NCBI GenBank assembly: GCA_024224155.1 | Contig: JAAENP010000520.1 | Location: 1-56,186, forward strand | Direction of reading: 5' to 3' | DNA length: 56,186 bases | From: a bacterium | GTDB lineage: Bacteria > Acidobacteriota > Thermoanaerobaculia > Multivoradales > JAHEKO01 | Shown: positions 2,490 through 16,029 of the stretch, piece by piece | Layout: each line of letters opens with the position of its first letter | Position numbering within the stretch: position 1 is the stretch's first letter | Notes under the pieces: generated by a model | Told to the model about the DNA's origin: nothing | The model's database searches: none | Seen by the model: only the letters and a program-made list of their open reading frames with translations | Program-made: the position numbers and the translations under genes

Positions 2490-4142
2490 ATGCGTCGGGC
2501 GTTGAGAAGCCGTTTGATGCTTCGCCTGGGAGCGGCCTTCTGTTTGGCCGCCGTCGGCGTGCTGATTGCCGCCGGTGCCTGGAACCTCCGCCTGCAGCGC
2601 TCCCACCTCACACGGTTGGTTTTGGCCAGCGCCACCGAGCGGGCCGACGATATCTGCCGCTCGACGCGCGAGGCGATGATGCGCAACCGGCCGGGAGAGG
2701 TCGGGCGCATCATCGATACGATCGCCGCCAAGCCGACGGTCGAGCGGATCCGACTGTTGGACAAGCGGGGCCGCATTCGCAGCTCGACCGATCGGACCGA
2801 GATCGGGACCGCGGTCGACATGATCGCCGAGGAGTGCGTCTCGTGCCACCGTCCGGGCGAGGTCCTCGAGCGCCCGACGCAGGAGGATCGAGCGCGCATC
2901 TTCGAGACGGAAGACGGCAGGAGACTCCTGGCGGTCATCGCTCCGATCCGCAACGAGCCTTCCTGCGCCAGCGCTTCGTGCCATGCGCACCCGTCCACGC
3001 GCACCATCCTCGGAGTCCTGGATGTCCACCTCTCGCTCTCCGAAACCGAGGAGTTCCTCGCCGCCTCGGAGCGACAGATGCTGCTAGGGCTGTTCGGCAC
3101 GGTGGCCGCCCTTTGCGTCCTGGTCGGGCTGCTGACGTGGCGAATGGTGCTGCAGCCGGTAGGCAGGCTGACCGCCGCCGCCACCAGGGTGGCAGCGGGT
3201 GAGCTCTCGACCCATATCCCGGTGCATTCCGGGGACGAGATCGGCGCCATGACGGAGGCTTGGAACACGATGATCGCCAAGCTCGGCCGCGCTCAGATTG
3301 TCCTCGAGCGCTGGAGCAAGACTCTCGAGCAGAAAGTGCAGGAGAAGACCGTCGAGCTCGAAACCGCCCACCAGCGGTTGTTACGGGTCGAAAAGATGGC
3401 CTCTCTGGGCAAGCTGGCCGCGGTCGTTGCGCACGAGATCAACAACCCACTGACCGGTATCAGCACTTACGCCCGTTTGTTGAAGCGCAGGCACTTCGCT
3501 CCGGATCGGGCCGATCCTCGACCCACGCCGCAGGATGACGAGACCGAGCGAATCCTGGGACTGATCGAAGAGGAAGCGCTCCGCTGCAGCAAGATCGTGC
3601 GCGATCTGTTGCTCTTCAGCAGGTCACCGGCCGTCTCCTTCACCCGGCAAGAGCTCGAGCCTCTGCTCCAGAGGTGTGTCATGTTGCTGCGCCACCAGGT
3701 CAACGCAAAGCGCGTGGAGCTGCAGCTGGAAGTGGAGGAGAAGCTGCCGAGCGTCACCTGCGACGGTTCTCAGATCCAACAGATGATCGTGGCGCTCACG
3801 CTGAACGCCGTCGAGGCGACGCCCGCCGACGGCAATGTGACCCTCAGCGCCCGCCACGACACTTCGACCGGCGAGGTCGTTTTGGAAGTGAGGGACACCG
3901 GCCGGGGCATTCCCGCCGAGCACTTGGACAACATCTACGAGCCGTTCTTCACCACCAAGGAGGAGGGCAGCGGTGTCGGACTCGGACTCGCGGTGGTCTA
4001 CGGCATCGTGGAGCGACACCACGGTACGATCGAGGCGGTCTCGGAGCCGGGTAGAGGTACTCTGTTCACGATCCGGTTGCCGCTCCGCCAGGACCTGGGG
4101 ACGGCCGGTGCGCAGCGCACCGACCCGGAGGTAGACCGATGA
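2490..4142 (+). CDS. Membrane histidine kinase with periplasmic c-heme motifs
   Basis: A 550-residue sensor kinase. Order: N-terminal membrane helix (about 12-32), periplasmic domain (33-195) containing CVSCH at 116-120 and C159-X4-C164-H165, second membrane helix (about 197-218), HAMP (219-272), coiled coil, HisKA with His315 in AVVAHEINNP, and HATPase_c with Asn439, DTGRG at 469-473, EPFFTTK and GVGLGL. The CX2CH, and perhaps the CX4CH, can bind covalent heme, so the protein likely senses redox state, O2, NO or an electron carrier outside the membrane. The start at 2490 follows a GAAAGGAGG site. The stop overlaps the next gene as ATGA, giving a cognate kinase/regulator pair. The pair sits between the hdr and hydrogenase operons. 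Confidence 0.88.
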   Translation: MRRALRSRLMLRLGAAFCLAAVGVLIAAGAWNLRLQRSHLTRLVLASATERADDICRSTREAMMRNRPGEVGRIIDTIAAKPTVERIRLLDKRGRIRSSTDRTEIGTAVDMIAEECVSCHRPGEVLERPTQEDRARIFETEDGRRLLAVIAPIRNEPSCASASCHAHPSTRTILGVLDVHLSLSETEEFLAASERQMLLGLFGTVAALCVLVGLLTWRMVLQPVGRLTAAATRVAAGELSTHIPVHSGDEIGAMTEAWNTMIAKLGRAQIVLERWSKTLEQKVQEKTVELETAHQRLLRVEKMASLGKLAAVVAHEINNPLTGISTYARLLKRRHFAPDRADPRPTPQDDETERILGLIEEEALRCSKIVRDLLLFSRSPAVSFTRQELEPLLQRCVMLLRHQVNAKRVELQLEVEEKLPSVTCDGSQIQQMIVALTLNAVEATPADGNVTLSARHDTSTGEVVLEVRDTGRGIPAEHLDNIYEPFFTTKEEGSGVGLGLAVVYGIVERHHGTIEAVSEPGRGTLFTIRLPLRQDLGTAGAQRTDPEVDR

Positions 4143-5518
4143 GGAAGGATCCGGAGCAGATCCCGAGGGGCTCGATTCTGGTGGTCGACGACGAGCCGAT
4201 TGTGCTCGAGTCGCTGACCGATTGGTTCCGTGAGGACGGTTACGAGGTCGGCGCCGCCAGTAGCGCGAAGGAGGCGCTACGGTTGGCTGGGCTCGCTGAC
4301 TTTGACGTCGCCTTCGTCGACATCAAAATGCCCGGCACCGACGGGCTGACGCTCCAGTCTCGCTTGGCGGCGGCCCGGCCGGATCTGCCGGTAGTTATCA
4401 TGACCGCCCACGCTTCGGTCGAGTCGGCGGTCACGGCGCTCAAGGCGGGCGCCTACGATTACATCACCAAGCCGTTCAACCCCGAGGACCTCTCCCGCCT
4501 GGTGCGTCGAGCCATAGAGCACCGCGCGCTCACGAGCGAGAACGTCCGGCTCAAGGAGCGTCTTGACGCTCTCTTTGCGCCGACCGCCATCGTCGGTGAC
4601 TCGCTGGCGATGCAGCGGATTCTCGATCAGATCAGCTCGATCTCCCAAGCCGACTCCACGGTCTTGATCAAGGGCGAGTCCGGCACCGGCAAAGAGCTCG
4701 TTGCTCGAGCTATTCACGCCGGTTCACCACGCCGCTACGGGCCGCTCGTGGTCGTCAACTGCGGCGCGCTGGCCGAAGGCGTTCTCGAGAGCGAGCTCTT
4801 CGGTCATGAGAAGGGCTCCTTCACCGGCGCCGACGAGCGCCGCAGCGGGAAATTCGAACTGGCGGACGGCGGCACGATCTTCCTCGACGAGATCGGTGCG
4901 GTCAGTCAACGGGTGCAGGTCGAGCTGCTTAGGGTCTTGGAGGACAAGGTGGTGACCCGCGTAGGTGGAGAAAGGCCCGTCGCCGTCGACTTCAGGGTGA
5001 TCACGGCCACCAACCAGGACCTCGAGCAAATGGTGCAGCGCGGCGCCTTTCGCGAGGATCTCTATTGGCGGATCAACGTATTCACCATCGACATCCCGCC
5101 CTTGCGGCAGCGGCCCGAAGACGTTCTCCTGCTCGCTGAGCACTTTCTCGGCCATTTCGCTCGGGCGATGAACCGCCGGCCGCTGAAGCTCTCGCCGGCG
5201 GCGCTCGAGGCGGTGACCGCATACTCCTGGCCGGGCAACGTCCGTGAGCTGCAGAACGCGATCGAGCGGGCGGTCGTCGTCGCCTCGCCTCCCTCGATCG
5301 AGGTTGGAGATCTGCCGGTCAGAGTCACCGGGTCGACCGCCCGCGGAGGCTCTCTTTCCCTGAGCGAAGTCGAGAAGGAGCACATTCGCTCGGTGCTTGA
5401 AAGCTGCGAGTGGAACGTCGCCCGGGCGGCGCGCACACTGGAGGTGGACCGGGGCACGCTTTACAACAAGATCCACAAGTACGGTTTCGGTCGCCCCACC
5501 GACGCGCGGCGTTCCTAG
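4139..5518 (+). CDS. Sigma-54-dependent NtrC-family response regulator
   Basis: A 459-residue activator. The receiver domain (about 13-125) has the acidic pair DDE and the phospho-acceptor Asp61 in VDIKMPGTDG. The AAA+ domain (about 150-375) has Walker A GESGTGKE at 179-186, the sigma-54 contact loop as GSFTGA at 226-231 (more often GAFTGA), and Walker B FLDE at 248-251. A Fis-type helix-turn-helix ends the protein. Such proteins oligomerise on phosphorylation and open sigma-54 promoters. The start overlaps the kinase stop by 4 bases. Targets are likely the flanking hydrogenase and/or hdr operons, by analogy with HoxA/HupR regulators; this is inference from position. Confidence 0.92.
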   Translation: MRKDPEQIPRGSILVVDDEPIVLESLTDWFREDGYEVGAASSAKEALRLAGLADFDVAFVDIKMPGTDGLTLQSRLAAARPDLPVVIMTAHASVESAVTALKAGAYDYITKPFNPEDLSRLVRRAIEHRALTSENVRLKERLDALFAPTAIVGDSLAMQRILDQISSISQADSTVLIKGESGTGKELVARAIHAGSPRRYGPLVVVNCGALAEGVLESELFGHEKGSFTGADERRSGKFELADGGTIFLDEIGAVSQRVQVELLRVLEDKVVTRVGGERPVAVDFRVITATNQDLEQMVQRGAFREDLYWRINVFTIDIPPLRQRPEDVLLLAEHFLGHFARAMNRRPLKLSPAALEAVTAYSWPGNVRELQNAIERAVVVASPPSIEVGDLPVRVTGSTARGGSLSLSEVEKEHIRSVLESCEWNVARAARTLEVDRGTLYNKIHKYGFGRPTDARRS

Positions 5519-5580: not shown

Positions 5581-5982
5581 TCAGGGCCCGGTCTCGGCGA
5601 CCGAGAGGTCGTGCGCGACGAGATCCCAGGTTTCTTCTTCCTCGAGGGTTTTCCAGCCGGCCATCGCCGTACCCCGTACTCCCTCGCGGATGACAAAGTA
5701 GGCTCGACGAGGGGAGGTCCGCTCGCGCCAGAGCGGGTCGGTGAAGTCGGCGGGACGGCTCGAGAGATTCTGGCGCCGACCCCTGCCGTCTGCCGCCTCG
5801 CCGTGGCAGAGCGCGCAATGCTCGAGAAAGAGCTGCCGCCCGCGAAGGCGGGCATCCTGCGCCACAAGCACGCCCTCAGGTACCGTCACGCGACGATACT
5901 TCGGGGGCAGGTCTCCGTCGGTGCCTCTACAGCCCCCGAGGAACAGCAGCAGGCAAGCGGCCGTGAGCCACCGCGGCCCCAT
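5581..5982 (-). CDS. Lipoprotein class I cytochrome c
   Basis: A 133-residue protein with a short signal sequence ending in a lipobox (LFLGGC), so probably anchored by a lipid to the periplasmic face or outer membrane. One heme motif, CALCH, lies at about 56-60, and a Met in GTAMAGW is the likely second axial ligand. It is the last gene of the hydrogenase operon, and its ATG lies 56 bases inside the protease gene ahead of it; no later start would keep the signal peptide. It could accept electrons from the hydrogenase cytochrome b, giving a route from H2 to a periplasmic respiratory chain. The partner is inferred from position. Confidence 0.8.
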   Translation of the reverse strand: MGPRWLTAACLLLFLGGCRGTDGDLPPKYRRVTVPEGVLVAQDARLRGRQLFLEHCALCHGEAADGRGRRQNLSSRPADFTDPLWRERTSPRRAYFVIREGVRGTAMAGWKTLEEEETWDLVAHDLSVAETGP

Positions 5983-6487
5983 CGGTCTGAACTTTCTTCT
6001 TGACCAGGAACTCGAAGCCGAGTCGAGCCGCCTCGGCGACGACGCCGTCGATCAGATGCGGAAGGTTGGCCGCGACTCGCGGCGACAGGTTGGTGTCGAG
6101 CTCGAGAGATTCCGGGACTATCCCGCACAGAATCACCCGCTCGGGGTAGCTCTCCAGCAGTTCCAGGGCGTCGAGAAGATCGGCCACGCCGATCTGATGG
6201 CAGGAAAGCCGGTTGCGCACGGCCGGAGCCACCTCGTCGCCCTCCAGCCGCACCAGGGTACCGGCGGGGCCGTCGGCGGCGATGGCGTCGATCAGAATGA
6301 CGTCGTCCGCTCCGTCGAAACACGACAGCAGGCTCAGACCCAGGGTGCCGCCGTCCAGCACGCGCGTGGTGTCCGGAATCTCGTAGCGCTCGAGAATCGA
6401 GTGTACGGCATGCACGCCGAGGCCGTCATCGGCGCAGAGCAGGTTGCCGAGCCCGAGAACGAGCAGCGAACGCTCGCTATCCGCCAC
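5927..6487 (-). CDS. hyaD: [NiFe] hydrogenase maturation protease, HyaD/HybD family
   Basis: A 186-residue endopeptidase that removes the C-terminal extension of the large subunit after nickel insertion. The family signature GLGNLLCADDGLGVH is at about 12-26, with Asp and His residues that bind the active-site nickel, and a later SCHQIG supplies the second conserved His region. The start is GTG at 6487-6485. It overlaps the cytochrome b gene upstream by 11 bases and the cytochrome c gene downstream by 56, showing a tightly packed operon. The C-terminus is about 20 residues longer than in typical HyaD. Its substrate should be the large subunit encoded three genes up. Confidence 0.88.
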   Translation of the reverse strand: MADSERSLLVLGLGNLLCADDGLGVHAVHSILERYEIPDTTRVLDGGTLGLSLLSCFDGADDVILIDAIAADGPAGTLVRLEGDEVAPAVRNRLSCHQIGVADLLDALELLESYPERVILCGIVPESLELDTNLSPRVAANLPHLIDGVVAEAARLGFEFLVKKKVQTDGAAVAHGRLPAAVPRGL

Positions 6488-7223
6488 GGTGCGTGTGCCT
6501 GTCGATGAATCGGTACCCGGAGTAGATCAGGTCCTCCCGCGGCACCATCTTGTGGCCGGAGAAGATCGACTCGACCGTCGCATTGGCCTCGACCTGGGAC
6601 ATCATCACCGCGCTGTAGATGTGGTGCACGATGAACATCCAGAGCAGCCACATGACAATGTGATGAATCCAGTGCGCGGTTTGCAGACCGCCGACAAGGG
6701 GCAGGAAGAAAGTGAAGATTCGCATCGGCGAGTCGACGTGAGCGCTGGCCGCATACATGCCCAGACCGGTGGCGATCATGACCAGATAGGCGATGAAGAC
6801 GAAGGTGTAGAAGACACCCGCGAGCGGGTTGTGGCCGACAAAGCCGGGCGGCAGGCGAAGGGCGAAGAGGTAGTAGCGCAACGTCGGCAAGAGACCCTTG
6901 CGCCGGATGCGCGTCGCCGGCACGAACTTGTCCCAGTGCGAATACTTGTTGCCAATGAACATCCACAGGACTCGTGACAGCACCGACAAGGTGAAGACGA
7001 TCGCCGTGTAGAAGTGGATCAGCTTGGCGGTGCCCATGATGAAGTGCTGGCTGGCCTCGCCCGGCGCGGTCAGCATCGGGTTGCCGATGTAGAGCCCGGT
7101 GATCGAGAGCACCCAGATCGAGCCCGCGATCAGCCAGTGACAGACGCGCACCGGCCACTCCCAGACGTAAACGTTGGCCAGGCCCAGATCTTCGGTCGGA
7201 GCGGCCAGGGTATGCTCGGTCAT
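6477..7223 (-). CDS. hyaC: Hydrogenase b-type cytochrome subunit
   Basis: A 248-residue, four-helix membrane cytochrome b of the HyaC/HupC type. Candidate heme-ligating histidines appear in VCHWLIAG (first helix), IHFYTAIVF, and the HWIHHIVMWLLWMFIVHHIYSA helix. It anchors the hydrogenase dimer to the membrane and passes H2-derived electrons to quinone or to cytochrome c. The start MTEHTL at 7223 is chosen because it overlaps the large-subunit stop as ATGA; the longer open frame upstream is only the shadow of the large subunit gene. Confidence 0.9.
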   Translation of the reverse strand: MTEHTLAAPTEDLGLANVYVWEWPVRVCHWLIAGSIWVLSITGLYIGNPMLTAPGEASQHFIMGTAKLIHFYTAIVFTLSVLSRVLWMFIGNKYSHWDKFVPATRIRRKGLLPTLRYYLFALRLPPGFVGHNPLAGVFYTFVFIAYLVMIATGLGMYAASAHVDSPMRIFTFFLPLVGGLQTAHWIHHIVMWLLWMFIVHHIYSAVMMSQVEANATVESIFSGHKMVPREDLIYSGYRFIDRHTHRGG

Positions 7224-8926
7224 TGGACTCTCACTTTCACCAGCTCGTTGCCGTGTGGATCGAGGACATGCACGCCGCAGGCCATGCACGGATCGAAGGA
7301 ATGGACCGTGCGCAGAATCTCGAGCGGCTGCTCGGGATCGGCGACCGGGTTGCCGACGATCGCGGCCTCGTACGGTCCGGGCTGGCCCATCGCGTCCCTG
7401 GGGCCGGCGTTCCAGGTCGAAGGCACGACACACTGGTAGTTGGCGATCTCGCCGTCGACGATGTGAACCCAGTGGCCGAGGGCGCCGCGCGGGGCTTCGT
7501 GGAAGCCGGCGCCCGTGCAGTCCTTGGGCCAGCTCTTGGGGTCCCATTTCGAGTTGTCGTGGATGCGCAGGTCCCCGCGCCCCATGTTGTCGGCGAGCTC
7601 GTCGAGCCAGCCCTCTAGCTTCTCGGCCAGAACCAGGGTTTCGATGCCGCGGGCGGCCACCCGGCCCAGAGTCGAGAACAGGGCTTCAGGTCCCACGCCC
7701 AGTTGCCCCAGTGCATAGCCGACCAGCTCTTGGACCCGAGGATGACCCGAGGCATAGGCGACCAGCATCCGGGACAGGGGACCGACCTCCATCGGCTGGT
7801 CCTCGTAGCGCGGCGACTTGAGCCAGCTGTACTTACCGTTGGTGTCGAGCCGCTCGTAGGGCGGCTCGGGGCCGGTGTAGTTGGGCCGGGTCTCGCCTTG
7901 CGACGGCGGCAGACCTTGATCGTCCCCGCCCGCGTAGTCGAACCAAGAGTGCGTCACGTACTCGGTGATCTTGGCGGGATCGAGCGCTTCGACCGTTCCG
8001 AGATCGCGATTGCGGATGACTCCCGGCGGCAGGTAGAGCGGGGCGTTGTCGCCGTCGGTCTCAGGATACTCACCATAGACGAGGTAGTTGCCGACGCCGG
8101 CGCCGTAGCCGGCCCAGTCCTTGTAGAACGAGGCGACCGCGAGCAGGTCCGGGATATAGACCTGCTCGACGAAGGTCTTCGCCTGCTGGATCAGCTTGCG
8201 CATGGCCGAGATAGACGTCATGTTGAGGGACGCCTGCTTGTCGGGGTCGACCGGGGTCGCCATGCCACCGACCAGGAAGCTTTGGAGATGGGGGTTCTTG
8301 CCCCCCAGGATGGCGTGGATCTTTATGAACTCTCGCTGCCAGTCCAGCGCCTCGAGATAGTGGGCGACGGCGAGCAGGTTGGCCTCCGGCGGCAGACGGT
8401 AGGCCGAATGCCCCCAATAGGCGTTGCCGAATGGGCCGAGCTGACCTCGTTCAACGAACGCGGCGACACGATCCTTGATCGAGGTGAAGTAAGTCTTGCT
8501 CGACAGCGGCCAGGGGGAGATTGACTGAGCGAGGTTGGCGGTGGCCGCCGGGTCGGCCGACAGCGCAGAAACGATGTCGACCCAGTCCAGGGCGTGCAGG
8601 TGGTAGAAGTGGACGACGTGATCCTGGACCATCTGGGAGGCCATGATCAGGTTGCGCAGGATTCGGGCATTCGGTGGCGGCTCGGCCCCGATCGCGTCTT
8701 CGACCGCCCGGATCGAGGTGATCGCATGCACAGTGGTGCAGACCCCGCAGATCCGCTGGGTGAAGGCCCACGCGTCGCGCGGATCGTGGCCCTTGAGGAT
8801 GATCTCGACGCCGCGGAACATGGTCGACGACGACCAGGCATCGCTGACCTTGCCGTCGTCGACCTCCGCTTCGATGCGCAGGTGGCCTTCGATTCGGGTT
8901 ACCGGATCCACAACGACGTGAGTCAT
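7220..8926 (-). CDS. hyaB: [NiFe] hydrogenase large subunit, group 1
   Basis: A 568-residue catalytic subunit. The nickel ligands are in the L1 motif RICGVC (Cys60, Cys63) and the L2 motif DPCMACGVH (Cys547, Cys550). His553 marks the processing site, leaving a 15-residue C-terminal extension (554-568) for the maturation protease to remove. The N-terminal VDPVTRIEGHL is the conserved large-subunit opening. With a Tat-targeted small subunit, a cytochrome b and a protease alongside, this is a membrane-bound uptake hydrogenase facing the periplasm. It overlaps both neighbours by 4 bases. The exact HydDB subgroup cannot be assigned by eye. Confidence 0.95.
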   Translation of the reverse strand: MTHVVVDPVTRIEGHLRIEAEVDDGKVSDAWSSSTMFRGVEIILKGHDPRDAWAFTQRICGVCTTVHAITSIRAVEDAIGAEPPPNARILRNLIMASQMVQDHVVHFYHLHALDWVDIVSALSADPAATANLAQSISPWPLSSKTYFTSIKDRVAAFVERGQLGPFGNAYWGHSAYRLPPEANLLAVAHYLEALDWQREFIKIHAILGGKNPHLQSFLVGGMATPVDPDKQASLNMTSISAMRKLIQQAKTFVEQVYIPDLLAVASFYKDWAGYGAGVGNYLVYGEYPETDGDNAPLYLPPGVIRNRDLGTVEALDPAKITEYVTHSWFDYAGGDDQGLPPSQGETRPNYTGPEPPYERLDTNGKYSWLKSPRYEDQPMEVGPLSRMLVAYASGHPRVQELVGYALGQLGVGPEALFSTLGRVAARGIETLVLAEKLEGWLDELADNMGRGDLRIHDNSKWDPKSWPKDCTGAGFHEAPRGALGHWVHIVDGEIANYQCVVPSTWNAGPRDAMGQPGPYEAAIVGNPVADPEQPLEILRTVHSFDPCMACGVHVLDPHGNELVKVRVQ

Positions 8927-10089
8927 GCCTGGTCTCCTTCCTTGCCCTCTTTAATCGCCTTCTTGACAGGCTCCGCACTGTCGGCCGGTGGCTGGTACAC
9001 CTGCTGGTGCTCGAGCTCCTTGTGCTTCCAGCGTTTGCCGAGCTGGACGAAACCGTGGGCGGCGAAGGCGGCCGCCACGCCGGCGGTGGCCCACATGCCG
9101 ACCTTGTCGACCTTGGAGTGCTTGCCGAAGCCGGGGAAGCCCGCCAGGTGGGTGTAGAAGGGTGTCATCTTGTCCCAGAAGTCGGGCTCGGCGCAGCCGA
9201 TGCAGGGGTGGCCGCAGCCGATCGGCCAGTTAGTGCCCTCGTTCCAGCCGACATTGGGGCAGTTCTGGTAGGTCACCGGGCCCTTGCAGCCCATCTTGTA
9301 GAGGCAGTAACCAGTGCGATGTCCCTCGTCGCCCCAGGCTTCGACGTACTGGCCGCCGTCGTAGTGGGCGCGCCGCTCGCAGTTGTCGTGGATCGATTTG
9401 CCGTAGGCGAACAGCGGCCGACGGTAGCGGTCGAGCGGTGGGAAGCGGTTAAAGGTCAGGTAGTAGACGACGGTTCCAACTAGGTTCTCGGCGTTGGCAG
9501 GGCAGGCGGGCAGATTGATCAGGTTTTTGACGCCCGGTACCGCATCGGCCACCGACAGCGCCCCGGTCGGGTTGGGTGCCGCCGCCGGTAGGCCGCCGAA
9601 CGCGGCGCAGGTGCCGATGGCGATGGTTGCGGCGGCGTTGCCGCAGACCTCGCGCGCGATGTCGATCGCGGCACGGCCTCCGATCGTGCAGTAGGCGCCG
9701 TTGGCTCCGGTCGGAATCGAGCCTTCCACCACAGCGATGTAGCCGCCCGGCTTTTCGGCCACGACCTTGGCCAGAGCCTCCTCGGCTTGGTGCCCGGCGG
9801 CCGCCATGATGGTCTCGTGGTAGTCGACCGAGAGAGTGTCCAGGACAATGTCGGCGACCGTGGGCCGGCCGGCCCGGAGGAACGACTCCGTGTTCCCGGC
9901 GCAGTCCTGGAACTCGAGCCAGACCAAGGTGGGTTTCTCCTTGGTTTCAATGGCCTCGGCGATCTTCGCTCCTGCCACCTTGGGCAGGGCGAGCACGGTT
10001 GTCATGACGCCGCAAAAGCCGAGGAAGTCTCTTCGCGAGACACCTCGCCTCTGCAACTCTTCGAGAAACCAGTCGCGGGCTTCGGGCAT
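8923..10089 (-). CDS. hyaA: [NiFe] hydrogenase small subunit, Tat-exported, altered proximal cluster
   Basis: A 388-residue electron-transfer subunit. A twin-arginine signal (SRRDFLGFCG, 18-27) is followed by the flavodoxin-like domain and the Fe-S domain, then a C-terminal membrane helix (WATAGVAAAFAAHGFVQLG). Distal and medial cluster ligands are present (SIHDNC, GYCLYKMGC, NCPNVGWN, GCGHPCIGC). At the proximal cluster the usual CxGC is C63-A-G-N66: the second cysteine is Asn, while GTCA and PACP keep the other two. It is not the six-Cys O2-tolerant type. Group 1h enzymes have Asp at this position. The start at 10089 follows a GGAGGT site; upstream in-frame codons are non-homologous. It overlaps hyaB by 4 bases. 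Confidence 0.93.
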   Translation of the reverse strand: MPEARDWFLEELQRRGVSRRDFLGFCGVMTTVLALPKVAGAKIAEAIETKEKPTLVWLEFQDCAGNTESFLRAGRPTVADIVLDTLSVDYHETIMAAAGHQAEEALAKVVAEKPGGYIAVVEGSIPTGANGAYCTIGGRAAIDIAREVCGNAAATIAIGTCAAFGGLPAAAPNPTGALSVADAVPGVKNLINLPACPANAENLVGTVVYYLTFNRFPPLDRYRRPLFAYGKSIHDNCERRAHYDGGQYVEAWGDEGHRTGYCLYKMGCKGPVTYQNCPNVGWNEGTNWPIGCGHPCIGCAEPDFWDKMTPFYTHLAGFPGFGKHSKVDKVGMWATAGVAAAFAAHGFVQLGKRWKHKELEHQQVYQPPADSAEPVKKAIKEGKEGDQA

Positions 10090-10225: not shown

Positions 10226-10963
10226 TCAGAGTCCCAGCTGGATCGCCAAGCCGCACAAAGCGATGACGAGCCCGGCGCTGGCGTGGGCCCAGCGTTGCCA
10301 GGAGCCGTCGGGGAGCCGGGCGGCGCCGAGCCGGCCGGCGAGGACCACCGAGGTCATCGTGATCAGCGTCGCGACCGCGAAGGCCGCTGCGACGACGGCG
10401 ATGCCGGTCCAGTCACGAATCGAGGAGGGAATCATCAGCAGTGGAATCAGCGGCTCGCAGGGTCCCAGCACGAAGATCAGGAACAGCGCCCACGGCGTCA
10501 TGCGGCGGATCGGTCCCGGGCGGCCTTCGGAGGTCGACTCGTGGACGTGGGCATGCGCGGCGACGTGGGTGTGCTGGTGAGTGTGGAGGGTGCCGTCGGC
10601 GTGGCTGTGCCAGTGGCTGTGCGGTCGAGCGCGTTGCGCCTGGCGTAGGCCCCAGGCCAGGTAGGCCAAGCCGAATCCGAGCAGCAGCCAGCCGGCGAGC
10701 GCTCCCCTCAGAGCCTCGACTCGTTCGAAGCCACCGAGAGTCCAGCCCAGCGCAATGCCGAGCGAACCCAGCAGAATCGAGCCCGCCACGTGACCCGCGC
10801 CGCAGGCGAGGGTCACGCCCGCGGTTCGCGCAGCGGACCACTGTCGAGCCCGCGCCAGGGTGATGAAGGGAAGGTAGTGATCCGGACCGACCAGGGCGTG
10901 CACGAAGCCGACGGAGGCCGCCGTCGCACCGAGAAAAAGCAGCTCCTCGGACACGGCGATCAC
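10226..10963 (-). CDS. UreH/HupE-like nickel transporter with histidine-rich loop
   Basis: A 245-residue polytopic membrane protein with about six helices. Helix one holds VHALVGPDHYLPF (His22, Asp28, His29), a variant of the H-x-D-H metal motif of nickel/cobalt carriers and UreH-like proteins; CGAGHVAGS follows in helix two. Between helices, residues 115-141 form a histidine-rich segment with about ten His, a likely Ni2+ reservoir. It lies directly after hypB and before hyaA in the same direction, so it probably feeds nickel to hydrogenase assembly. A sulfite-exporter or cytochrome-biogenesis label from remote homology is possible but fits the context less well. Confidence 0.75.
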   Translation of the reverse strand: MIAVSEELLFLGATAASVGFVHALVGPDHYLPFITLARARQWSAARTAGVTLACGAGHVAGSILLGSLGIALGWTLGGFERVEALRGALAGWLLLGFGLAYLAWGLRQAQRARPHSHWHSHADGTLHTHQHTHVAAHAHVHESTSEGRPGPIRRMTPWALFLIFVLGPCEPLIPLLMIPSSIRDWTGIAVVAAAFAVATLITMTSVVLAGRLGAARLPDGSWQRWAHASAGLVIALCGLAIQLGL

Positions 10964-11686
10964 CTATCCGGCCGCCGCCTTGGTGGAGACGCCGGCGCCG
11001 GTGACAGCCTTCCGCTGAGCCTCGAGCCAGGTGAGCCAATCGTCCATGCCTTCACCGGTCTTTGCCGAGACCGGAATCATGGCGGCGGTCGGCATCGTAC
11101 GGGCCAGGCCGTCCTCGATCACCGAGACGTCGACCTCGAGATGGGGCAGGAGGTCGGTCTTGGTGAGCAGGACGAGGTCGGCCTTGCGGAACATCACCGG
11201 GTACTTGAGGGGCTTATCTTCGCCCTCGGTGACTGCCAGGGCGACCACATTGACCGCTTGCCCGAGATCGTAGACCGCGGGGCAAACCAGGTTGCCGACG
11301 TTTTCGATGACCAGGAGATCCAGATCTCGCCAGTCGAGGTCGTGAAGGGACTTGTGCACCAGCTCGGCGTCCAGATGACACGACGATCCGGTCGTGATCG
11401 AGAGGGACGGAATGCCCGCGGCCTTTAGGCGATCGGCGTCACGGCTCGTGGCGAGGTCGCCGCTGATCGCTCCCAGGCGGACCTTTCCAGACCATGCCGC
11501 GGCCGTTGCCTCGAGCAGTGCCGTCTTGCCCGATCCGGGCGAGCCCATGAGGTTGATCGCCAGAACGCCGGCGCCGGCGAAATGCTCCCTGTTGTGTGCG
11601 GCAACGCGATCGTTGCCCGCCAGAATGCTCTCTTGGATCTCGATGGGTACCAGCTCGGGATCACCGCAGCCGCAGGTCTCGCACAT
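10964..11686 (-). CDS. hypB: Hydrogenase nickel-insertion GTPase HypB
   Basis: A 240-residue SIMIBI-class GTPase that delivers nickel to the large subunit with HypA. The N-terminal metal site is MCETCGCGDPE (Cys2, Cys5, Cys7). Walker A is GSPGSGKT at 48-55; the switch region has SGDLATSRDADRL and GSSCHLD, the conserved Cys-His metal pair; LTKTDLLP is the guanine-specificity motif. The start at 11686 is the ATG of TAATG, sharing one base with the hypA stop. The N-terminal Cys motif is present, but there is no long His-stretch; the transporter next to it carries one instead. Confidence 0.95.
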   Translation of the reverse strand: MCETCGCGDPELVPIEIQESILAGNDRVAAHNREHFAGAGVLAINLMGSPGSGKTALLEATAAAWSGKVRLGAISGDLATSRDADRLKAAGIPSLSITTGSSCHLDAELVHKSLHDLDWRDLDLLVIENVGNLVCPAVYDLGQAVNVVALAVTEGEDKPLKYPVMFRKADLVLLTKTDLLPHLEVDVSVIEDGLARTMPTAAMIPVSAKTGEGMDDWLTWLEAQRKAVTGAGVSTKAAAG

Positions 11687-12027
11687 TACGCAGCCTCCAT
11701 TTCGATTCTCTGGAGAACGATCTCGTCGCCGCTCAGAAGTCGAGCGGGTTGCTTGCAGTCGGGGCACTGCAATCGGGCGCCCGCCTCGAGTAACTCGCGA
11801 CAGGTAGGGCAGCTCCATTCCGCGGGCACGACTTCGATCTCGAGCTCGGCGCGAGCACAGATCGACCGATCGCGGAAAACCTCGAAAGCCGTCCGCAGAA
11901 GATCCACTTCAATACCCGAAAGCTCGCCGATCTTGAGCTCGATCCTGTCGACCGAGACCGCGCCGTGCTTGCGGGCTTCAGTCTCGACCTGGGACATGAG
12001 CGCCTGGACGATGGAGTACTCGTGCAT
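11686..12027 (-). CDS. hypA: Hydrogenase nickel chaperone HypA
   Basis: A 113-residue metallochaperone. It opens with MHEYSIVQ, where the N-terminal amine, His2 and Glu3 form the nickel site, and it has the structural zinc pairs CPTC (Cys73, Cys76) and CPDC (Cys88, Cys91). The start is set by MHE at 12027; in-frame codons upstream are not conserved. It is the first gene of the apparent hypA-hypB-transporter-hyaABCD-cytochrome c transcript. HypC-F, needed for the Fe(CN)2CO group, are not in this window. Confidence 0.95.
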   Translation of the reverse strand: MHEYSIVQALMSQVETEARKHGAVSVDRIELKIGELSGIEVDLLRTAFEVFRDRSICARAELEIEVVPAEWSCPTCRELLEAGARLQCPDCKQPARLLSGDEIVLQRIEMEAA

Positions 12028-12226: not shown

Positions 12227-13192
12227 GTGAGAGATTGGCTGTTGCCGCTGCTCCGGTGCGTGCGCTGCGGAGCTCGCGACCTGGTGCGCCGAAAGGACGA
12301 GTTGGAGTGCCCGGGTTGTGGGGCAGAGTTTCAGGTAGACGAGGACGTCGCCAATTTTCTGGATCGGCCTCATCCGATTGTCCAGCACGAAATCGAGGCC
12401 GTCGCTGCCCTGGACAGCCGGGAGCCGGCGACGCGACGGAGAATCCGAGAGCTGCTCGTGGCATTGGACCAAGGCCGGGTGGACGGGAGCGATCACCGTT
12501 TGACCGAGTTCCCGAGCTTTCGGGAGTTCTTTACGACGCGCCGACGCGCTCAAGAGATGCTCGAGCGATATCCGCCGAGACCCGAATGCCTGGTGGTGGA
12601 GTTGGGTGCCGATCACTGTCTGCTGAGCGGGGCATTCCTCGACGCCGGGTGCCGCGTGATCGCGGTCGACATCACCGACCATCTGCGCCTCGCGCCGCGG
12701 GCGGCCAGCGAGGATCTGTGCCGGATCCGGGCCGACATGAACCGGTTGCCGGTCGCCGACGGCTCCGCCGATCTGGTCTGGGCCACGGCCTGCGTGCACC
12801 ACTCCTGGAGCCTGGAAAGGACTTTTCGCGAGGCTCGCCGGGTGCTCGCACCTGGCGGCCGGCTGGTTCTGCTGAACGAGCCCATGCCGGCCTGGCCGAG
12901 ATTTCTGACATTCGGCCTGGGGCGCGGCTTCGGCCGCGAGCAGAAGGATCTGGGCATCAACGAGAACCTGCATAGACGCGGCGCCTGGTCGCGAACCGCC
13001 AGGAAGGCCGGCTTCGAGCCGCAGCTCTTGTTCCCGGCGCTGAGTGATCGGGAGCTCCGGGCGAGACTCGGCAGGTACCGAATCCCGGCCGGATGGGCGC
13101 CACTGCTGAGCCGCTTGGCTCGTCCGCTCCAGGTCTCGATTCACATGGTGGCGGAGCTGCCACCGCCCGCGAGATCGGGCTCTCCGCAGTAG
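12227..13192 (+). CDS. SAM-dependent methyltransferase with N-terminal zinc ribbon
   Basis: A protein of about 321 residues. The N-terminus has a Trm112-like zinc ribbon (LRCVRCGARDL...LECPGCGAEF, two CxxC pairs), then a class I methyltransferase domain. SAM-binding motif I is degenerate (VVELGADHCLLSGAFLDAGC), followed by an acidic residue after the second strand (AVDIT) and the late strand RVLAPGGRLVLLNEP. GTG at 12227 is preferred over an ATG at 12170 because it puts the CxxC ribbon at the start as in relatives. The 3' end runs 52 bases into the convergent ACP-ligase-PlsC gene. The substrate is unknown; a lipid or sugar intermediate would fit the neighbour. Confidence 0.75.
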   Translation: MRDWLLPLLRCVRCGARDLVRRKDELECPGCGAEFQVDEDVANFLDRPHPIVQHEIEAVAALDSREPATRRRIRELLVALDQGRVDGSDHRLTEFPSFREFFTTRRRAQEMLERYPPRPECLVVELGADHCLLSGAFLDAGCRVIAVDITDHLRLAPRAASEDLCRIRADMNRLPVADGSADLVWATACVHHSWSLERTFREARRVLAPGGRLVLLNEPMPAWPRFLTFGLGRGFGREQKDLGINENLHRRGAWSRTARKAGFEPQLLFPALSDRELRARLGRYRIPAGWAPLLSRLARPLQVSIHMVAELPPPARSGSPQ

Positions 13193-16029
13193 TCGAGGAT
13201 CTCGGCGCGGACGGCGTCGCGCAGCTTGGCGGCCGCGGCCATGTCGGATCCTTGCGCGCGAATCGGCGGCCGGATCGTCAACGAGATCTGACCCTTGCGC
13301 GGGAACCACTTGTTTCCACGCAAGACCGAGCGGGTTCCGCGGATGGCGACCGGGACAACCGGCACGCCGCTCTCGGCCGCCAGCATGAAGGCGCCGAGCC
13401 GAAACGGCCGCAGACCGGGGGCGCGGTCGAAGGTGCCCTCTGGAAACAGGAGCAGAGATTGGCCCTGCCTCAAGGTCTCGGCGGCGCGTCGTATGTCCTG
13501 GACCCCCTTGCTGGGATCGAATCGCTCGACGAAGAGGGTGCCGAGGCGCTCGAGCAGCAGTCGGGCGAGAAAACTGTCCTTGAGCTCGCGCTTGGCCAGA
13601 AAAGAGCCCTGGGTGGGCAGGGTGGCGGTCAGCGCGAAGCCGTCGAGATAGCTCGCGTGGTTGGCGACGACAATCCAGGGGCCGTCGCCCTCGAGATGCT
13701 CGACACCGGCGACCTGGATCGGAGTCGACGTCAGGCGGGCGATCTGGCGCGCCGCGCCACCGGCCAGGCGACGCCGGCGAGCCAGCTTGGGGAGCAGGAT
13801 GAGGGAAGCCGCGACCGGCACCGCGGCAAGGCCGACGACGGCCCAGAACCTCCCCGCGTGCGCCAACTCCCTGGCGGCGCGGCCGGTGCGGACGATTTGG
13901 GGGCGTGCGCCGGACGCGGCGAGCCGTGCGACCTGGAGCCAAGCGGGCCCGCGTCGCTCGAGCTTGCCGCCTTCGTAGAGCTCGCGCCCGGCCGCCCGCC
14001 TCAGTTTACCGCTCGAGGTCTTGGGCACGGCTCGAGGTGGCACCAGCGATACGTCGTCGGCGGGCGTGCCCACGAGGTCGACTGCCGCCTGCTGGATCCG
14101 TTCGCGCAGCTCCTGCCGGACGGTCTCGTCCGTCTCTCGGGTCTCGGCCAGGACAACTAGCCGTTCGGTGCCGGTCTTAGGATCCTTCGATCCGAAGACC
14201 GCCACGCATCCCTTGCGAACACCCGGCAGATTCCCGACGACCTCTTCCAGTTCCTGGGGATAGATATTGCGCCCCGCACGGATGATGAGGTCCTTGGCGC
14301 GTCCGGTGACGAACAACTCGCCGGCGGCGATGTAGCCCAGGTCGCCCGAGTCGAGCCAGTCGCCGTCAAAGAGCTTCCTAGTCGCTTCCGGGTTGCGAAA
14401 GTAGCCGCTGGTCGCCGACGGCCCTCGAAACTGGATCTTGCCCTCGTGGCGTTCTCCGACCTCCGCGCCGGTCGAGTCGACGATGCGGATCTCGTGGTCG
14501 ATCAGGGTGAAGCCGGCGCCAACGAAGCTGAGGGCATCGGCATCGTCGTAATCTTCCCCACCGTCGTGGGACACTGGCTCGGCGCGTCCGGCGACGGCGA
14601 GCTGCTCACGGTCCACTCTGTCCACCACCGGTCCGCGACCGATGGGGGGGAACGCCAGGGCGAGAGAGCACTCCGCCAGTCCGTAGACCGGCATCATCGT
14701 TCCCGGCCGGTAGCCGTAGGGAGCGAAGCGCTCGGTGAACTCCTCGATGGTTCTTGGACTCACCGGCTCGGCGCCGTTGAGTGATCCTCTCCAAGAGGAA
14801 AGATCGAGCCCTTGGATCTCGTCATCCTCGATTTTCTTTAGGCAGAGCTCGTAGGCGAAGTTCGGAGCCGCGGAGAGCGTCGCTCGGTAGCGATGGACCG
14901 CCTGAAGCCAGCGCGCGGGCCGGGCCAGAAAGGCAAGCGGCGACATCAGCGTCAACGGCATCGCGAAATAGAGGCTGCCCATCCATGCACCAATCAAGCC
15001 CATGTCGTGGTAGAGGGGCAGCCAGCTGACCACCCGGTCGTTCGGGGTCAGCTCCGCCGCACGACCTATCGAGCGCAGGTTGGCCAAGAGATTGGCGTGG
15101 GTGAGAATCACGCCCTTTGGGTCGGCCGTCGAGCCCGAGGTGAACTGGAGAAACGCGATGTCGTTGGCACGGACCACGGGCAAGCTCGCCGTCGGTCCGT
15201 CGACGGTGAGCTCGGCTGGAGTCATGACTCGCGTCAAGCTGCCGACATGGGCTCGCACCAGGCGAGCGAGCGGCATGACTTCGGCAACCGTGATCAGGAA
15301 GCGGGCTTGGGCCGTATTCAGGATGCCGGCCTGTCGGCGCAGATGGTCCTCGATCTGGCTGAGGCGCGCCGGCGGGTAGAGCGGCACCGGGACGCCGCCG
15401 GCCATGAGAATTCCGAAAAAGGAGGCAAAGTAGTCGAGGCCGGAGGGCAACATCAAGCCGACGGTCTGCTCGCTTTCGAGCCCAAGCTCGCGAAGCGCGC
15501 GGGCGACTCCCTTACCTCGTTCGAAGAGAGCTCCGTAGGTCAGGTCTTCGATCTGATCCCTTTCCGCCAGAAAGGCGACGTGGCTGCGCTCGGGATGGCG
15601 ATTCGCGTGCCACCCCAGAACCTCGACCAGAGTCTCGGCGCGCTCGGGAGCGGGCTCGGCGTCGCCGAGAACGGCGGTGACCGTGTCCACCGACCGAGCG
15701 GCTGCCGAGCTGGGACGCCCGGTCGCCACCGCAGCGACCGCCGCCCGCAAGAGGTCACGGGGCGTCTCCGCGGTCGCCATCACGCGCTCGGACAGGGCGA
15801 GGTCGAAGGCCCTCTCGATCTGTCCGACGAGCTCAACTCGGCCCAGGCTGTCGATGGCGAGATCCCGCTCGAGCGAGCTGTCCAGGGTCACGCGCCTCCG
15901 GCGCGAGCCCGGGTGGAGCTCGTCGGCGACCTGCACGACCACCTGCAACAGAGCGTCGGCGTCGACCGCGGGGCCGGCGGGTGCCGCCTCGCCGTTTCCG
16001 CCCCTCTTGGGATCGCGCGTCTCGGCCAC
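13141..16029 (-). CDS. Three-domain fusion: acyl carrier protein, acyl-AMP ligase, PlsC acyltransferase
   Basis: A 962-residue protein with three activities in one chain. Residues 25-105 are an acyl carrier domain with DSLGRVEL, Ser61 being the phosphopantetheine site. Residues 135-680 are an ANL adenylating enzyme like FadD/FAAL (TSGSTADPKG at 297-306, GYIAAGELFVTGRAKDLII). A hydrophobic segment at about 720-742 probably anchors it to the membrane, and the PlsC domain follows with NHASYLD (His791, Asp796) and FPEGT (862-866). It should activate a free fatty acid, load it on its own carrier, and esterify it to a lysophospholipid or similar acceptor. E. coli Aas joins PlsC and ligase in the opposite order and lacks a carrier domain. 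Start is GTG. Confidence 0.9.
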   Translation of the reverse strand: MAETRDPKRGGNGEAAPAGPAVDADALLQVVVQVADELHPGSRRRRVTLDSSLERDLAIDSLGRVELVGQIERAFDLALSERVMATAETPRDLLRAAVAAVATGRPSSAAARSVDTVTAVLGDAEPAPERAETLVEVLGWHANRHPERSHVAFLAERDQIEDLTYGALFERGKGVARALRELGLESEQTVGLMLPSGLDYFASFFGILMAGGVPVPLYPPARLSQIEDHLRRQAGILNTAQARFLITVAEVMPLARLVRAHVGSLTRVMTPAELTVDGPTASLPVVRANDIAFLQFTSGSTADPKGVILTHANLLANLRSIGRAAELTPNDRVVSWLPLYHDMGLIGAWMGSLYFAMPLTLMSPLAFLARPARWLQAVHRYRATLSAAPNFAYELCLKKIEDDEIQGLDLSSWRGSLNGAEPVSPRTIEEFTERFAPYGYRPGTMMPVYGLAECSLALAFPPIGRGPVVDRVDREQLAVAGRAEPVSHDGGEDYDDADALSFVGAGFTLIDHEIRIVDSTGAEVGERHEGKIQFRGPSATSGYFRNPEATRKLFDGDWLDSGDLGYIAAGELFVTGRAKDLIIRAGRNIYPQELEEVVGNLPGVRKGCVAVFGSKDPKTGTERLVVLAETRETDETVRQELRERIQQAAVDLVGTPADDVSLVPPRAVPKTSSGKLRRAAGRELYEGGKLERRGPAWLQVARLAASGARPQIVRTGRAARELAHAGRFWAVVGLAAVPVAASLILLPKLARRRRLAGGAARQIARLTSTPIQVAGVEHLEGDGPWIVVANHASYLDGFALTATLPTQGSFLAKRELKDSFLARLLLERLGTLFVERFDPSKGVQDIRRAAETLRQGQSLLLFPEGTFDRAPGLRPFRLGAFMLAAESGVPVVPVAIRGTRSVLRGNKWFPRKGQISLTIRPPIRAQGSDMAAAAKLRDAVRAEILDYCGEPDLAGGGSSATM

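Follow-up and report, generated by a model that had tools for sequence, protein, structure and literature searches.

The window analysed here is the whole 56,186-nucleotide stretch of contig JAAENP010000520.1 (assembly GCA_024224155.1), from a bacterium of the Thermoanaerobaculia. Its minus strand carries, from 12027 down to 5581, hypA, hypB, a possible nickel permease gene, hyaA, hyaB, hyaC, hyaD and a cytochrome c gene, as follows.

11686-12027, minus strand: hypA, nickel metallochaperone, start inferred (PF01155, 103 bits).
10964-11686, minus strand: hypB, nickel-insertion GTPase, start inferred (TIGR00073, 268.9 bits).
10226-10963, minus strand: possible nickel permease, with a His-rich stretch seen by eye and no match in Pfam and NCBIfam.
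8923-10089, minus strand: hyaA, [NiFe] hydrogenase small subunit of 388 amino acids (TIGR00391, 426 bits).
7220-8926, minus strand: hyaB, large catalytic subunit, with RICGVC and DPCMACGVH motifs seen by eye.
6477-7223, minus strand: hyaC, b-type cytochrome subunit, start inferred (TIGR02125, 141.5 bits, above cut-off; PF01292).
5927-6487, minus strand: hyaD, maturation protease (PF01750; TIGR00072 above cut-off).
5581-5982, minus strand: monohaem cytochrome c (CALCH), with a lipobox-like LGGC near the N-terminus seen by eye (PF13442, PF00034).

The ATG start codon of hyaA occupies 10087-10089 on the minus strand with CTGGAGGTGC immediately upstream, and the encoded protein displays, by eye, a twin-arginine motif (SRRDFLGFC) and a hydrophobic C-terminal stretch. 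TIGR00391 has one match in the source genome, that is, one small subunit was found, and hypD lies on another contig of that genome. Adjoining the operon on the plus strand (2493-5518) are genes for a histidine kinase and a sigma-54-activating response regulator, matches to which, some of them weak, occur near 7 of 80 related loci for the kinase and near 5 for the regulator. Further out, a heterodisulfide-reductase-like gene pair on the minus strand (96-1585) encodes a cysteine-rich CCG domain and a 4Fe-4S dicluster domain; it has a counterpart near one of the 80 related loci, as a single gene of the pair only. On the other side of the operon, a 962-residue open frame (13141-16029, minus strand) resembles by eye a fusion of carrier, AMP-ligase and acyltransferase domains.

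HyaA matches 43 solved hydrogenase small-subunit sequences. Roles were given to its cluster positions by alignment to solved hydrogenases together with established ligand numbering. The proximal-cluster positions are as follows.

9901-9903, minus strand: Cys63, first proximal ligand, codon TGC (alignment).
9892-9894, minus strand: Asn66, codon AAC, in place of the second proximal-cluster cysteine (sequence and alignment).
9607-9609, minus strand: Cys161, proximal ligand (alignment).
9502-9504, minus strand: Cys196, proximal ligand (alignment).

The initial annotation had read C63-A-G-N66 with an AAC codon within 9886-9905 and had described every other cluster ligand as intact. Both statements hold: alignment to the solved proteins finds C161 and C196, the medial ligands C277, C296 and C299 with P289 at the medial proline position, and the distal ligands H234, C237, C262 and C268 all present. 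The altered proximal cluster that was proposed on this basis is plausible. The best solved matches, Desulfovibrio vulgaris Miyazaki hydrogenase (1H2A, 337.5 bits) and the C. necator MBH (3RGW, 311.5 bits), belong to the same fold family but have Cys at the second proximal position, and MBH additionally possesses two extra cysteines.

The nearest set of relatives consists of the best 80 of 516 found in genome contigs. At the site equivalent to residue 66 these 80 loci carry Asn in 77 cases, Asp in three (Geomonas L073 and L077, Geotalea L080) and Cys in none, which bears out in substance the first part of what the initial annotation named as a refutation of its reading, that all the closest relatives have Asn. 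The corresponding codons are AAC (71 loci), AAT (six) and GAC (three); the residue is thus kept while its codon changes. The closest named locus among the same 80 is L001, a Thermoanaerobaculia MAG with 95% identity. Beyond them, 142 further readable rows (two more are gapped) comprise 86 with Cys, 37 with Asn, 17 with Asp and two with Glu; these are best-scoring matches from searches with the family model against relatives and three phyla, hence a non-random set, and share a few genes with the nearest set. The family-model searches gave matches above cut-off in 39 of 199 genomes drawn from the organism's own phylum, 77 of 148 from the phylum of Geomonas and 23 of 151 from the phylum to which a Caldilineales MAG belongs. 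With Cys missing from the site in 56 of the 142 rows, the CxGC motif is not universal as had been supposed. All remaining ligands are invariant across the 110 rows classed as "1f-like Asn" by a motif rule, a rough one that put L223, a distant row on the 1h side, under 1f-like Asp and L061, which is truncated, under "other Asn"; the tree-based counts below are independent of it.

A quick maximum-likelihood tree was built from 200 rows (96 Asn, 83 Cys, 19 Asp and two Glu), leaving out duplicates, rows shorter than 280 residues and rows gapped at the site. The ligand residue requires nine changes on this tree as against a mean of 79.5 when shuffled. HyaA is placed among 69 Asn rows (support 100), inside a wider clade of 98 rows (SH-aLRT 95) in which only Asn and Asp occur and which includes the Geobacteraceae rows L073, L075, L077, L078 and L080. 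Asp is found in nine rows of this clade (L073, L077, L080, L176, L181, L183, L190, L196 and L212). The 1h-like and 2a-like rows, whether they have Asp, Glu or Asn, lie far from it. Because the tree program flagged long branches meeting, the deep nodes are unsure. Four Asn rows (L127, L128, L129 and L132) are not part of the main clade but sit on a long branch behind a weak node (58), and may represent a separate second origin of Asn. Judged from these alignments, Asn66 is a common trait of its enzyme group and no peculiarity of the source genome.

The HyaA/HyaB enzyme is most likely a member of HydDB group 1f, a label that rests on tree grouping and ligand motif. It shares the 98-row clade with the Geobacteraceae enzymes, which would be the group 1f enzymes of the literature, and it has Asn at one proximal ligand, where group 1f has Asn or Asp, together with none of the extra group 1d cysteines. 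The gene order of small subunit, large subunit, cytochrome b and protease is likewise that of group 1f. PMC5364354 reports that one proximal cysteine is replaced by Asn or Asp in the group 1f enzymes of Geobacter, Roseiflexus and Frankia, without numbering the position. Group 1f is described as polyphyletic and poorly studied (PMC6896113), and several Acidobacteria are reported to possess it (PMC5900883). Oxidation of H2 to sub-atmospheric levels is attributed to organisms bearing group 1f (PMC6776052; PMC7174314), with A. ailaaui cited for it in the former. Where HyaA departs from the group is in its subclade, which has an additional cysteine (C292) and, at the majority of its loci, a cytochrome c gene.

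Three other classes were considered and rejected. Group 1d, the O2-tolerant MBH type, is rejected on the Gly residues that HyaA has at both extra-cysteine sites (positions 19 and 120). Group 1h is rejected since HyaA has CAGN and P289 rather than CDGD and a Cys at the medial proline position, the latter seen in 1h-like rows and in eight of the nine rows classed "other D". The solved group 1h-type enzyme, actinobacterial HofK (5AA5), resembles HyaA in having a non-Cys residue at the second proximal position and, with its CDGD motif, supports the initial annotation's statement that group 1h has Asp there; its match to HyaA is weak (104.5 bits). Two 1h-like small subunits (L156 and L159) have Glu at this ligand position (CDGE), and five rows belonging to the same phylum as a Caldilineales MAG (L224, L225, L226, L227 and L229), sister to the 1h-like rows, have Cys (CDGC). 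Group 2a is rejected as well. Huc of Mycobacterium smegmatis (7UUR, 7UTD) does carry Asn at the same proximal position (CSGN in HucS), but in the three group 2a rows Gln replaces the distal His and Lys the medial Pro, residues that HyaA retains, and the match between Huc and HyaA reaches only 115.9 bits.

The substitution itself had been described by the initial annotation as not well documented, which the literature contradicts: it is already published and is therefore not new. In addition to the solved HucS, PMC5364354 reports that mesophilic Methylacidimicrobium has Asn for one of its four proximal cysteines (position not numbered) and that Asn occurs in group 2a as well, and PMC4070099 tabulates Nostoc punctiforme HupS as "proximal, 2, Cys to Asn" and G. 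metalloreducens as "proximal, 2, Cys to Asp". The Methylacidimicrobium HupS is likened to HyaA by description only; it differs in being assigned to group 1d (PMC5364354) or 1b (PMC6813726) and in its O2-sensitive H2 uptake.

Because the residue needs few changes on the tree, and because the nearest loci keep Asn or Asp while the codon varies, we consider it probable that Asn66 is an inherited group trait within a working uptake hydrogenase. In favor of this reading are also the invariant remaining ligands, the adjoining cytochrome b, protease and hypA/hypB genes, and an engineered Alteromonas enzyme whose C81N variant still evolves H2 (PMC4070099). Most likely Asn66 is a weak ligand or none, so that the proximal cluster has a high potential while the enzyme is otherwise ordinary, membrane-bound and devoted to uptake. 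HyaA would then serve for electron relay in a [NiFe] uptake hydrogenase that is exported and bound to the membrane, and its second proximal cysteine would have been replaced by Asn66 through descent. Electrons from H2 split at HyaB would enter a proximal cluster whose fourth iron is either missing, as reported for Huc, or weakly held by Asn66, so that the cluster would be a high-potential [3Fe-4S] or a [4Fe-4S] with one non-thiolate ligand. From there they would travel by way of the medial cluster and the distal one to cytochrome b (HyaC) and on to the quinone pool, with the operon's cytochrome c perhaps an additional acceptor. In either form the cluster potential would lie above that of a Cys4-ligated cluster and would bias the enzyme to H2 uptake, possibly at low H2.

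As to which of the two forms HyaA contains, we rate the chances of [3Fe-4S] as roughly even, and the evidence on cluster type points both ways. In the Huc paper three clusters are assigned as [3Fe-4S], the grounds being density, EPR and the fourth coordinating residue. Since Huc also differs from HyaA at the medial and distal sites, its redox behavior is not attributable to Asn alone. Counting against [3Fe-4S], PMC5364354 mentions that in group 2a an asparagine coordinates 4Fe4S, and PMC4070099 that the 4Fe4S clusters of one small subunit having unusual ligands were intact.

The same two remarks favor the best-surviving rival, in which the side chain of Asn66 truly ligates a [4Fe-4S] cluster, as is thought for the Asp of group 1h HofK, and the enzyme is redox-ordinary. 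This we regard as a serious but less probable reading. An amide ligates less strongly than a thiolate or a carboxylate does, which counts against it. Its case is strengthened by the Asp found at this position in nine rows of HyaA's own tree clade and in HofK, and by an engineered Alteromonas enzyme in which both C81N and C81D retain H2-evolution activity (PMC4070099); the Asn-bearing Huc, reported to be [3Fe-4S] throughout, speaks against it. Structure prediction from a 24-row alignment gave a mean pLDDT of 57.4, with values below 50 at residues 62-75 and 230-342, and at such low confidence neither N66 nor C292 can be placed in the model.

The suggestion of the initial annotation that Asn66 confers O2 tolerance, in parallel to the Asp of group 1h, appears doubtful. 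Huc is reported to be O2-insensitive with Asn at this position, but its authors credit the insensitivity largely to narrow gas channels. HydDB names group 1f "Oxygen-protecting" while giving its role as unresolved (PMC5037454), and PMC6896113 cites oxidative-stress defence in Geobacter sulfurreducens. Against these stand the Gly residues that HyaA has in place of the two group 1d cysteines and the behavior of Methylacidimicrobium tartarophylax 4AC, a member of the genus whose mesophilic strains carry Asn, which consumes H2 only below 40 uM O2, uptake ceasing above that level, although the authors allow that this reflects expression and not inactivation (PMC6813726). Given this O2 limit and the gas channels of Huc, O2 tolerance is no safe inference from Asn; it is possible for the HyaA enzyme but not implied.

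One further cysteine sets HyaA and its closest relatives apart.

9214-9216, minus strand: Cys292, extra cysteine four residues ahead of the medial ligand Cys296 (alignment).

The equivalent residue in D. vulgaris is Ala. Cys occupies the position in 69 of the 96 Asn rows and in none of the 83 Cys, 19 Asp or two Glu rows. A careful tree of 109 rows was built with the trait residues masked, from the Asn and Asp rows outside 1h and 2a plus seven of the 83 Cys rows; here all 69 C292 rows lie on one side of a single branch with support of 100/100. C292 thus arose once on this tree, and traits of its clade could be inherited passengers. Of the 57 C292-clade loci with room for a further gene after the protease, 46 have a cytochrome c gene there (four further loci lack room), as has one of ten loci without C292, by a rough count that accepts any forward-frame open stretch of at least 70 codons with CxxCH just past the protease. 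By tblastn, 47 of the best 80 of 516 loci have a relative of the operon's cytochrome c. A different cysteine, directly after the first proximal ligand (CCGN), is present in the Asn rows L033, L035, L036, L037, L055, L068 and L135, and on the tree its six rows amount to six changes, none shared.

It is quite improbable that such a cysteine, C292 in HyaA's clade or Cys18 in a few relatives, replaces the missing ligand and restores a Cys4 cluster. The restriction of C292 to Asn rows, with every clade row and no Cys-bearing row having it, would fit such a role, as would a cysteine after the first ligand that arose about six times and only in Asn rows. By sequence, though, C292 sits in the medial-cluster loop, 27 of the 96 Asn rows do without it, and the predicted structure is too poor to put it near the proximal site. 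In titles and abstract openings of literature on group 1f with medial-cluster or supernumerary cysteines C292 is absent, which is weak evidence of absence. The pairing of C292 with cytochrome c is put forward as a clade-level hypothesis rather than a demonstrated mechanism. More speculatively, and in our estimate unlikely, HyaA might represent an undescribed group 1f subclade in which Asn and C292 together with a dedicated cytochrome c lipoprotein, serving as electron outlet, make up an oxidation-biased relay of high potential for scavenging trace H2, reached independently of Huc.

A sequencing or assembly error at codon 66 is rejected as having a negligible chance, since independent assemblies agree, Cys is absent from all of the best 80 of 516 loci, and AAC is at least two bases from TGC and TGT, so that a single base error cannot account for Asn66.

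Asn66 is most likely an inherited substitution that would raise the potential of the proximal cluster. The single residue is not new in either case, and the question that matters is the cluster chemistry of group 1f. If the proximal cluster of this group is not [3Fe-4S], Asn would be a tolerated substitution of little consequence. If it is [3Fe-4S], Asn at this position would be usable as a sequence mark of high-potential uptake hydrogenases beyond Huc, and would help to predict which soil bacteria are able to use trace H2.
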